A stretch of 64,000 bases of DNA from Halovivax ruber XH-70 (lineage in GTDB: Archaea; Halobacteriota; Halobacteria; Halobacteriales; Natrialbaceae): positions 3,100,001 through 3,164,000 of the forward strand of contig NC_019964.1 of assembly GCF_000328525.1 (NCBI RefSeq). The letters run 5' to 3'. A program made the position numbers and the translations under genes. The first letter of the stretch is position 1. Each line of letters starts with the position of its first letter. The notes beneath the pieces were generated by a model that made no database searches, was not told where the DNA came from, and saw only the letters and a program-made list of their open reading frames with translations. Positions 3,923 to 41,864 of this stretch are shown piece by piece.

Positions 3923-4094
3923 CGCGGAACGGGATGGGCGCGGTGTCGCTGTCGGTGGGCCTTGCCGGGTCAGATCCGATGCGAGCGAAGAAGCGAGAGT
4001 ATAGTGAAGCGCCTCGAAAAACGCGAACGCCGAAGCGGTGAGCGATAGCATCTCAATCGACCGCCAGTGCAGGTGGTGCCTGCGGAGGCGGCCT

Positions 4095-4159
4095 TTTTCA
4101 TCGAAGTTTTTCGCGACGGGTCGCGCGAAGCGCGATCCCGATCGCGCAAAAAGTTCGTT
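4095..4159 (-). repeat. 3'-flanking repeat with internal hairpins, copy 1
   Basis: This lies immediately after the stop codon of the acyl-CoA ligase gene. On the minus strand it begins AACGAACTTTT and ends AAAACTTCGATGAAAA, with hairpins between (for example CGCGATC-CC-GATCGCG). The same outer blocks occur after polC at 24947-25006 with different inner stems. It may be a 3'-end or termination element, or a dispersed repeat. Confidence 0.7.
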
Positions 4160-12016: not shown

Positions 12017-12688
12017 TTACGCGTCGTCGGACGACGAGTCGCCCTGCGAGTCGCCGGCAGACGCGCTGTTCGACGCCATGCCGATACCGACCGAGGAGCC
12101 GTCGGGAAACGAAACCGAGACGGAGGCCTCGTTGGGCGGCTCTGCCGTCGTCGCCCGGACAACGGCGCCTTCGGCCGTCAGTTGCTGGGTACACATATCG
12201 TCGCCGTCGTCCGCCTCTTCCAGGCTGGTGCTAACCGAGATGGCGCCGTCGTCGTCCAACGAGACGTCCGAGACGGTGAGCTGGTGGCAGCCGTCGGGCG
12301 CCTGGGCCTCGATCGCGATCGCTCGTGACGACCCGTAATCGGTCTCGCGAAGCGCAGTCGCGGCCGGCCCGTTCGGTTCGATCTGACCGGAGGCACTATC
12401 GAGCCAGGATTCGACGTCCTCGACGGACGTGAACAGTTCGGCCCTCGCTTCGGCCGGGGGTTGGGAGTGACTGTATCGGACGAAGCCAGCGGACTCGATC
12501 CCGTCGGCCGCCTCGATCGACGAGAGGACCGAGCTGTCGTCCTCGTCGTCGGTCGATCCGTTACTGGCGGGCTCGTCCGACGAGTCAGTATCGCCGCCGA
12601 TCACGCCGCCATCGGTCAAACAACCGGCGCTGAGCGCGACGAGCGCCGTCGATGCGCCCAGTACCTCGCGTCGTGAGAGTCGTTCCAT
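12017..12688 (-). CDS. Putative lipoprotein with acidic linker
   Basis: A 223-residue protein. A twin arginine (LSRREVLG) and a lipobox (ALSAGC, Cys23) mark a Tat lipoprotein. A Ser/Asp-rich linker covers about residues 28-60. The remaining domain contains two cysteines (GCHQLTV and MCTQQLT) that could form a disulfide outside the cell. No family is recognised. It is convergent with hemL and divergent from the nucleobase permease. The ATG at 12688 is chosen because it puts the Tat motif at the N-terminus. Confidence 0.8.
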   Translation of the reverse strand: MERLSRREVLGASTALVALSAGCLTDGGVIGGDTDSSDEPASNGSTDDEDDSSVLSSIEAADGIESAGFVRYSHSQPPAEARAELFTSVEDVESWLDSASGQIEPNGPAATALRETDYGSSRAIAIEAQAPDGCHQLTVSDVSLDDDGAISVSTSLEEADDGDDMCTQQLTAEGAVVRATTAEPPNEASVSVSFPDGSSVGIGMASNSASAGDSQGDSSSDDA

Positions 12689-12924: not shown

Positions 12925-12933
12925 GATTTATCC
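12925..12933 (+). promoter_or_regulatory. Likely TATA box of the nucleobase permease gene
   Basis: GATTTATCC is the only good TATA-like sequence in the upstream gap. It predicts a transcription start near 12957, giving an untranslated leader of about 90 bases, unusual among the mostly leaderless genes here. Confidence 0.5.
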
Positions 12934-12956: not shown

Positions 12957-13047
12957 AGACCTGTACGCACACGGGAGAGATCTTGGACCGGTACCGAGGG
13001 CAGGGACGGCTCGAGGGCTCGATGGGGCGTACATGGAGGACACATAA
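12957..13047 (+). promoter_or_regulatory. Structured 5' leader of the nucleobase permease
   Basis: TGTACGC at 12962-12968 is a perfect complement of GCGTACA at 13027-13033, closing a loop of 58 bases. The 3' half of this stem directly abuts the Shine-Dalgarno-like TGGAGG at 13034-13039, eight bases before the ATG. Inside are GG-ACCGGTACC and CGAG...CTCG pairings. This is the geometry of a translational switch, but no known riboswitch class is recognised. Confidence 0.4.
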
Positions 13048-14634
13048 ATGACAGAAAACACAGACGAAGTCGCGAAGACGGACGGCGGCGACGTCACACG
13101 CGAGGAGGCGTCGTTCGTCGAGTACGGCATCGAGGACAAACCGCCACTCGGCGAGTCGATCTTCCTCGGGATGCAACACTACCTGACGATGGTCGGCGCG
13201 TCGGTCGCCGTCCCGCTCATTCTGGCCGCAGAGATGGGAATGGGACCCGGCCCGACGGCTCGACTTGTGGGAACGTTCTTCGTCGTGTCCGGAATCTCGA
13301 CGCTGGCGCAGACGACCGTCGGCAACCGGTATCCGATCGTCCAGGGTGGGACGTTTGCACTCCTAGCGCCGGCGGTCGCGATAATCGCGGCGCACGGTGG
13401 CCCGTGGGAAGTGACGATACTACAGTTACAGGGAGCGGTAATCGCAGCCGCACTCGTGCAGGTGTTCCTCGGTTACTCGGGCCTGCTCGGGCGCCTAACG
13501 AAGTACCTCTCGCCGGTCGTCCTCGCGCCGGTGATCGTCCTGATCGGGCTATCGCTGGTGAATGCCCCCGATGTCACGCGGACCGACCAGAACTGGTGGC
13601 TGCTCGGACTCACGCTGTTCCTCATCATCCTCTTCTCACAGTATCTGGACAAGTACAGTCGGTACGCGAAGCTGTTCCCCGTCCTTCTCGGTGTCGCCGG
13701 CGCCTGGATCTTCGCCGGCGCTCTGACCGTTCTGGGCGTCTTCACCGAGGCGACGCACGTCTCCGGGGCGAACGACAGTAGCCTCGGATACATCGACTTC
13801 TCGCAGATCGCCGACGCGACGCTCGTCCAGCCCATCGTCCCGTTCCAGTGGGGCATGCCCGAGTTTACCGCAGCGTTCGCGATCGGGATGCTCGCGGGGA
13901 TCTTCGCCTCGATACTGGAGAGTATCGGCGACTACTACGCCGTCGCCCGGATTGCCGGTGTCGGCGCACCGAGCCAGAAGCGGATCAACCACGGAATCGG
14001 GCTGGAGGGACTCAGCAACATTTTCGCCGGTATCATGGGTACCGGGAACGGTTCGACCTCCTACGGGGAGAATATCGGCGCGATCGGAATCACCGGCGTC
14101 GCTTCCCGGTACGTAGTCCAGATCGGTGCCATCGTCATGCTGATCGTCGGGTTCTTCGGGCCGTTCGGCGCGCTGATCACGACGATCCCCAGTCCGATCG
14201 TCGGCGCGCTCTACATCGCCATGTTTGGCCAGATCGCTGCGGTCGGGCTATCGAACCTGCGGTTCGTCGACTTAGACGCATCGCGGAACGTGTTCATCGT
14301 CGGGATCGCACTATTCGTCGGACTGGCGCTGCCGAACTACTTCGGCGGGTTCGATAGCGCAAGCACCTTCCAGGAGACCGCCGAGACCGCCGCGATCGTC
14401 GGACCGATCTTCGCACAACAAGTCGTCTCCAACACGATCTACGTCGTCGGATCGACGACGATGGCCGTCGGCGGCCTGATTGCGTTCATCCTCGACAACA
14501 CCATCGAGGGAACTCGTGAGGAGCGGGGGCTCACCGAGTGGACACAACTCGCCGAGGACGAGTCCGAGTTCCAGACAGTGTTCGACCGCCTCCGTTCTTC
14601 CGACGACTCCACGGTAGCCGACACGGCCGACTGA
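13048..14634 (+). CDS. NCS2-family xanthine/uracil permease
   Basis: A 528-residue nucleobase:cation symporter-2 with about 12-14 membrane helices. Family hallmarks are GMQHYLTMVGASVAVP near residue 40, the substrate-site segment QGGTFALLAPAVA, and GTGNGSTSYGENIGAIG, the NCS2 signature between helices 8 and 10. Uracil and xanthine specificity cannot be separated by eye. A second half of the salvage route, upp, lies at 58060. The gene has a Shine-Dalgarno sequence and a structured leader. The C-terminus is a hydrophilic acidic tail of about 45 residues. Confidence 0.94.
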   Translation: MTENTDEVAKTDGGDVTREEASFVEYGIEDKPPLGESIFLGMQHYLTMVGASVAVPLILAAEMGMGPGPTARLVGTFFVVSGISTLAQTTVGNRYPIVQGGTFALLAPAVAIIAAHGGPWEVTILQLQGAVIAAALVQVFLGYSGLLGRLTKYLSPVVLAPVIVLIGLSLVNAPDVTRTDQNWWLLGLTLFLIILFSQYLDKYSRYAKLFPVLLGVAGAWIFAGALTVLGVFTEATHVSGANDSSLGYIDFSQIADATLVQPIVPFQWGMPEFTAAFAIGMLAGIFASILESIGDYYAVARIAGVGAPSQKRINHGIGLEGLSNIFAGIMGTGNGSTSYGENIGAIGITGVASRYVVQIGAIVMLIVGFFGPFGALITTIPSPIVGALYIAMFGQIAAVGLSNLRFVDLDASRNVFIVGIALFVGLALPNYFGGFDSASTFQETAETAAIVGPIFAQQVVSNTIYVVGSTTMAVGGLIAFILDNTIEGTREERGLTEWTQLAEDESEFQTVFDRLRSSDDSTVADTAD

Positions 14635-14714: not shown

Positions 14715-15149
14715 ATGCCGAACAGGTCGGGGCTAGAACTCGAGGCGGGCGAGCGGTTGCGCTACCGTGGTGACCTCCGATTCGGCGGGGAGGTGGCGGT
14801 CACCGACGATCGGCTGCTCGTCGTGCGTCCCGACGAGCGACTCAGCGTCGCCTACGAGCGGATCGACGAGGTTGCCCACGAGGGCTTCGACTGGTTCCTC
14901 GGGCTCCTGAGCGTATCGCTGGTCGCCTTCGGCCTGTACGGCCTGACGCGAAACCCGGCCCTGGGCGCGTTCTTCGTCCTGGCCGGCCTCTGGAGCATCC
15001 ACCGATCGTTCCGACGCCGCGACCTCGTCCGCGTCCACGTGCAGGACGAGGCGAAACCGGTCACCATCCATCCGACCGCGATCGACGACTGTTTTGGGGC
15101 GCTCGAGGCCGCGATGGATGCGGCCCGCGACACTGCCGACGCAACGTGA
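14715..15149 (+). CDS. Membrane protein with PH-like domain
   Basis: A 144-residue protein. The N-terminal part (LEAGERLRYRGDLRFGGEVAVTDDRLLV split by short strands) looks like the bacterial PH-like fold seen in YdbS/DUF2244-type membrane proteins. Two hydrophobic helices occur at about residues 60-95, followed by a second short beta-rich segment. Function is unknown. A GTG two codons upstream (14709) is an alternative start. Confidence 0.7.
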   Translation: MPNRSGLELEAGERLRYRGDLRFGGEVAVTDDRLLVVRPDERLSVAYERIDEVAHEGFDWFLGLLSVSLVAFGLYGLTRNPALGAFFVLAGLWSIHRSFRRRDLVRVHVQDEAKPVTIHPTAIDDCFGALEAAMDAARDTADAT

Positions 15150-41624: not shown

Positions 41625-41687
41625 GGAAGCCGCGTCCGCATGGGCAGAAATGCCCCGGGTGTTAGAGGCACCCGAGACGTGGCTTCC
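41625..41687 (+). ncRNA. Predicted three-way-junction RNA (unnamed)
   Basis: A 12-bp stem (41625-41636 with 41676-41687, one G-U pair) encloses two perfect hairpins: GGGCA-GAAA-TGCCC (41642-41655, GNRA tetraloop) and CGGGTG-TTAGAGG-CACCCG (41656-41674), which abut with no linker. The G-U pair and the GAAA loop both indicate the plus strand. Two more perfect hairpins follow. It does not fold as a tRNA and no RNA family is recognised. An A/T-rich stretch at 41588-41619 could supply a promoter. Confidence 0.4.
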
Positions 41688-41688
41688 A

Positions 41689-41706
41689 AATCCCCTAGCC
41701 GGGATT
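41689..41706 (+). repeat. Hairpin following the RNA candidate
   Basis: AATCCC-CTAGCC-GGGATT is a perfect 6-bp stem with a 6-base loop, two bases after the three-way junction. Confidence 0.7.
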
Positions 41707-41734
41707 CTGGTCGCCATGTTCCGAAACACACCTT

Positions 41735-41752
41735 CGAGACAAAAAGGTCTCG
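41735..41752 (+). repeat. Second hairpin following the RNA candidate
   Basis: CGAGAC-AAAAAG-GTCTCG is a perfect 6-bp stem. It could end the putative transcript, though no T-run follows. Confidence 0.65.
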
Positions 41753-41864
41753 CACGCCCGTTGCCTAGAGAGTCGTATCGCTACCCGTCGCTGAGTTTCG
41801 TTTTCCGGGATTGGGGGCCGAGTCGCTTCGATCGGTTCGAGCCGTCGGACTGCGAGGTGCTCGG

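Follow-up and report, generated by a model that had tools for sequence, protein, structure and literature searches.

A putative 5'-terminal mRNA stem that may gate translation of an NCS2/NAT permease in Halovivax ruber and related haloarchaea

In the 64,000-nucleotide stretch of the Halovivax ruber XH-70 genome analysed here (NC_019964.1, positions 3,100,001 to 3,164,000; hereafter the window, whose own coordinates are used throughout), the gene for an NCS2/NAT permease of 528 amino acids (13048..14634, forward strand, with its ATG at 13048; PF00860, E 2.7e-76) is preceded by a leader in which the first dozen nucleotides of the mRNA would pair with a strand further down. This proximal stem, P1, is kept by relatives while both of its strands have changed, which, as far as sequence comparison goes, suggests an effect on translation or on the preservation of the message. 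We put at about even the chance that P1 is a stem at the 5' terminus of the mRNA and that it sets or gates permease translation. In Haloferax volcanii, 72% of protein-coding transcripts are reported to be leaderless, and the authors judge control by structured leaders to be untypical of haloarchaea (PMC4983044). A stem at the predicted mRNA 5' end of one gene across a haloarchaeal family would therefore offer a system in which RNA-level control in these organisms could readily be studied.

The permease transcription start would lie near 12957, placed by its spacing from a TATA-like box, TTTATC (12927..12932, forward strand), that is recognised both in the sequence and in the homologous leaders. 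The resulting predicted 5' leader is 91 nt long (12957..13047, forward strand; folding z -2.6), in line with the leader of about 90 bases given in the original prediction. No TTTA-like element is found within these 91 nt, so no promoter is seen for a start at ATG 13048, and a leaderless start there was rejected; transcription attenuation was rejected as well, the leader having no T-run. The 5' strand of P1, CCTGTACGC (12960..12968, forward strand), has pair probabilities of 0.88-1.00 and is conserved in all three genus leaders. It includes TGTACGC (12962-12968), which pairs perfectly, as had been predicted, with GCGTACA (13027-13033) across 58 bases. The loop between them (12969..13026, forward strand) carries a predicted distal hairpin (~12972-13024) in the consensus fold of three leaders, and the 3' strand, delimited by the folds, consists of GCGTACA, a bulged T and GG (13027..13036, forward strand), the aligned strand in L045 being CCGTATACGG. 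The predicted contact with the Shine-Dalgarno-like TGGAGG (13034..13039, forward strand) was also found, GCGTACA ending at 13033. Furthermore, the fold extends the two arms by C12960-G13036 and C12961-G13035, and since the pairing runs on past the bulged U13034, the first two G of GGAGG lie within P1.

Open reading frames around the leader were considered and set aside. An upstream frame from ATG 13033 is lost in L046 (ACATGG to ACACGG), and one from ATG 13022 is in another frame in L046 and reads ATG-GCG-TGA in L045. An antisense frame reaches 13045, and its overlap with the leader is judged spurious because the probable start of that gene is at 12688, where MERLSRREV begins.

On its own, and in statistics within the window alone, the leader barely exceeds chance. 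Its minimum free energy is -31.1 kcal/mol (z -2.61), a value equalled by 6 of 200 shuffles, and z ranges from -2.5 to -2.9 over separate shuffle runs. Among 1422 equal-sized stretches of the window, taken on both strands, 27 have z <= -2.6 in a run in which the leader itself scored -2.52, and 65% have a minimum free energy as low as the leader's or lower. The lowest folding z values of the window are found elsewhere, at ~4051-4144 on the reverse strand (z -4.59) and at 41671-41764 on the forward strand (z -4.30). A perfect 7-bp inverted repeat is present in 33.9% of 18260 window stretches of 94 nt, and one placed as in the leader in 2.9% of them. A reading by chance and base composition, in which the 5' arm owes its conservation to a promoter role alone and any GC-rich leader will contain a partner for it, fits the abundance of such repeats in a third of the stretches, the z of the leader, which is within the range of other window stretches, and the weak covariation within each layout described below. 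We nevertheless regard it as quite doubtful in view of the combined arm and fold tests over relatives and the both-sided changes at arm positions 3 and 4. Indeed, it is the comparison with homologous leaders that makes P1 credible above chance.

Homologs were collected from 125 genomes of the family, 392 genomes of the order and 43 named loci. A permease match at E<=0.001 is present in 107 of the 125 family genomes, and the 392 order genomes gave 47 matches at E<=1e-200. Of the five genomes that represent the genus, two lack the gene at E<=0.001; the nearest named relative among the loci found is Halovivax asiaticus. The leader set (n=21) comprises all 20 family loci with at least 73% protein identity, our own included, and L093 from another family. 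L057, a near-copy of L056, was left out of the pairing and shuffle statistics, which leaves 20 distinct leaders, and also out of the rows taken for layout B (described below). In all 21 homologous leaders, TTTAT[ACG] is followed after 25-27 nt (26 nt in 16 of the 21) by the 5' arm, whose motif is RYCTGT, with ACCGGG in L061; this agreement is partly by construction, because the arm was searched for with a regular expression that fixed the spacing range at 24-30 nt and allowed few letters. From the TATA spacing, the homologous RNAs are predicted to begin 1-2 nt before the arm motif.

None of the more distant relatives (19 of 20 further loci, L093 apart) was counted for P1. At L096, L098, L105 and L110 the inferred mRNA 5' end also carries a predicted hairpin, in each case unrelated in sequence; three of these hairpins sit shortly before a purine-rich stretch and the AUG. 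Hairpins at the 5' end are possibly a wider habit of these permease genes. Predicted leaders of 13-18 nt, with no hairpin, are found at L095, L097, L099 and L102-L104. The nine other distant loci give no clear picture, show no structure or have no evident TATA box; one of them, L094, has a strong fold (z -2.5).

Each of the 20 distinct leaders was folded individually, with positions counted from the 5' end. Arm positions 5, 7 and 8 are paired in 19, 19 and 20 leaders, respectively, as C-G in 19 at position 5, as G-C in 18 and G.U in one at position 7, and as U-A in 19 and G-C in one at position 8. The flanking positions vary on both sides: position 3 is A-U in 12, G-C in three and unpaired in five, position 4 is C-G in 13, U-A in five and unpaired in two, and position 9 is A-U in four, G-C in five, G.U in six, C-G in one and unpaired in four, where L056 (one base shorter) is out of register beyond position 8, L061 is so beyond position 5, and L048 and L049 are in a neighbouring register. 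Pairing is weak in L055, and L093 uses a different partner strand that overlaps its AUG; with these two set aside, P1 is counted in 18 of the 20. L045 alone favours a shifted register, which folds at -38.3 kcal/mol where its aligned P1 reaches -35.3, and in this leader the arm test is not significant (p 0.445).

Within the genus (three leaders), where loss of the stem in close relatives had been named as grounds for rejection, eight P1 pairs are present in all three leaders, one of them through a change from G-C to G.U, and a ninth in two. The genus consensus fold has one P1 pair broken in one sequence; in its distal part, two pairs show both-sided changes and each of six others is disrupted in a single sequence. 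The covariation that the original prediction had proposed to look for takes the form of both-sided pair changes across leaders. Formal scores within layouts are weak: computed on six similar rows per layout, they are matched by 14 of 500 shuffles for layout A and by 125 of 500 for layout B. When 11 rows of the B and C types were folded jointly with L093 in RNAalifold, only four pairs came out, because the registers differ.

When shuffle tests were combined over the 20 leaders, which are related to one another, z was 6.4 for folding of the sense strand and 3.4 for that of the antisense strand; testing the 5' arm against the remainder of the leader gave 6.0. Because of this relatedness one median p per layout was also used, which gave 0.0009 (sense) and 0.0016 (arm). 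In 15 of the 20 leaders the sense z is below the antisense z, a preference for folding of the transcript strand. Furthermore, a hand tally of the A and B helices counts 18 G.U against seven A.C mismatches (binomial p 0.02), an excess that is expected if the transcript strand folds, yet one biased by folding software that favours G.U. Both observations bear on the possibility that a repressor or activator recognises the arms as a DNA operator situated where transcription starts, the RNA fold being a by-product of the operator's symmetry. Such an operator would suit a 5' arm that is fixed relative to the TATA box and the tight layout B hairpins, which are nearly palindromic: a covariance model, R2, weakly matches the opposite strand (E 0.08 and 0.48) at two leaders of its own set. 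The strand preference and the G.U excess speak for RNA, however, and the gap between the arms, although constant within layout B, varies from one layout to another between a few nt and 58, where half-sites at a fixed spacing would be looked for. With this variable spacing, and with no strong further sites among the candidates scored in 125 genomes, the operator is disfavoured and, in our judgement, unlikely.

The search for further sites used pattern matching and two covariance models. The pattern TATA-N-RYCTGTRCG has one site in the H. ruber genome, at the permease gene, and a pattern search gave 74 sites, of which 11 are permease leaders and 63 are not. Across the 125 genomes, covariance model R1 retrieves its six training leaders at E<=5.2e-11, with the next match at 0.0466, and R2 retrieves seven leaders (six training leaders and L057) at E<=2.6e-10, with the next at 0.0027; R2 also matches four layout C leaders weakly (E 0.14-0.80). 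The leader of the window itself is found by neither model. No strong match of either model outside permease leaders was seen in these genomes among the 45 or 57 first-look candidates scored per genome, a number at which weaker copies could be missed. Rfam 15 gave no match at the gathering score in the window or 11 relatives, and the two matches at E<=5 are both far below that score. A literature search, mostly covering papers outside subscription journals, found no description of the P1 element.

Around the proximal stem, the leaders take four layouts. In layout A (six leaders), P1 is joined by a second hairpin, P2, that ends 8-16 nt before the AUG, and layout B (seven leaders, one a near-copy) has a tight hairpin such as GGGUGUGAACACCC. 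In layout C (four leaders, three of them clear, Natrinema where named), the 3' strand GUACAGGU lies near the AUG, and in layout D (three leaders, the genus of the window), the 3' strand near the AUG is GUACAYGG or GUAUACGG and the loop is ~58 nt. The distance from the end of P1 to the AUG is 9-13 nt for layout D, for the three clear leaders of layout C and for two of layout B. For the remaining four distinct leaders of layout B it is 21-27 nt, so P1 is not always at the border of the ribosome landing site. Together, the distances of stems and hairpins to the AUG mean that a fold is often, but not always, present at the upstream edge of that site. On the protein tree, layouts C and D form one clade each, A needs five changes and B four, a number that is unsure for B because the L056 row is in the wrong frame and on a long branch; we infer that layout A is the oldest. 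The loop of P1, from 4 to ~58 nt across layouts, makes these natural variants around one proximal stem a ready series for reporter tests.

The permease protein bears on what such a leader might respond to. Its best relative of solved structure in the PDB is SLC23A1 (E 1.4e-99), and it is far less close to UraA (E 1.5e-13). SLC23A1 is an animal carrier of ascorbate and UraA a bacterial uracil permease. Because SLC23A1 is so much the closer, a nucleobase substrate is not established, and judged from the protein sequence the permease may carry something else. The gene is single-copy at E<=0.001 in the 3,223,876-base genome. In the genus of the window it lies among heme-synthesis genes. In most relatives (L075-L093) it is divergent from a gene for a 642-aa hydrolase-like protein and is itself followed by a CoA-transferase-like gene; genes for molybdenum-hydroxylase-like subunits and for a second, distant NCS2 permease often lie close by (all labels by eye). 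A small gene (cluster c2) lies 3' of the permease in 16 of 23 neighbourhoods; the copy in the window (14715-15149), which is not among the called members of the cluster, by eye resembles those of L074 and L091 and has no Pfam or NCBIfam match.

A metabolite riboswitch sensing a nucleobase or another permease substrate would account for a structured leader immediately 5' of a transporter gene and for a P1 that adjoins the landing site in the genus of the window. The layouts share no unpaired core, however, their loops varying in length and sequence in the alignments, and for this reason the riboswitch is disfavoured. Folds of single leaders revealed no competing stem, the pair probabilities showing one dominant P1; furthermore, there is no Rfam match and, among the candidates scored, no strong match at other genes. 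We consider such a riboswitch very unlikely, and the same findings leave the nucleobase that had been put forward as controlling ligand unsupported. Of the control of ribosome access by a ligand or protein that the original prediction envisaged, the structured leader and, in relatives, a stem at the landing site are supported, while control by a ligand is not, given the lack of a core and of an Rfam match. In a broader form, the leader would be a natural RNA switch that answers the permease's own substrate, directly or via a protein, with P1 opening and closing with its level. This we see as a long shot; if true, it would be the first such leader in a group with mostly leaderless mRNAs.

Gating of translation by P1 itself would work through the position of the stem. 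With P1 closed just upstream of where the ribosome lands, initiation would be lowered or gated, and the stem might be shifted by a protein, the growth state or salt rather than by a metabolite held in an aptamer. Gating of initiation is the best-supported reading because of a haloarchaeal precedent, the hp 5'-UTR stem-loop, where, in the available part of the report, stabilisation stopped translation and destabilisation made it constantly high (PMC2636863). Masking of the Shine-Dalgarno-like motif, part of the ribosome-site control originally suggested, is less likely to be the point of P1, since the Shine-Dalgarno motif is reported not to be used in Haloferax volcanii 5'-UTRs (PMC3986360).

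The main rival to gating of translation is protection of the 5' end from decay, in which P1 shields the mRNA and sets its half-life and translation is not the target. Haloarchaea possess 5'-to-3' exonucleases, which counts in favour of such a shield, as does the fact that P1 is predicted to open the message in every layout; the variable distance to the AUG (9-35 nt) also suits a function at the 5' end better than a block to the ribosome. The hp precedent, however, as described in the part of the report at hand, concerns translation (PMC2636863), and the literature search found nothing on decay of the permease mRNA. Protection from decay seems to us rather unlikely.

The fluoride (crcB) riboswitch is described, in the available part of a published account, as the only archaeal riboswitch determined experimentally, and it resembles the permease leader in being a structured archaeal leader presumed to act on translation (PMC8241225). 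It is a different RNA, and the window holds no crcB or other Rfam match. NMT1 was presumably among the Rfam families searched. This xanthine/uric acid riboswitch is an RNA element tied, in the portion of the source available, to bacterial purine-related genes (PMC7373994). In contrast to it, the permease leaders have no shared unpaired core, and NMT1 has no match in the window or 11 relatives. COG2252 is a group that we take to be NCS2-type permeases. The COG2252 motif, likened to P1 here by its description, takes its name from a gene family and is a candidate cis-regulatory RNA; in the available part of the source it is a table row for Pseudomonadales that carries no Rfam number (PMC2864571). 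A further close system is the hp leader, compared here by description with a leader whose function is predicted: its stem-loop, with a predicted dG of -7.4 kcal/mol against -31.1 for the permease leader, apparently does not belong to a permease gene, but like the predicted P1 it lies in a haloarchaeal 5'-UTR, and its stability is reported, in the part of that work available, to govern translational efficiency (PMC2636863).
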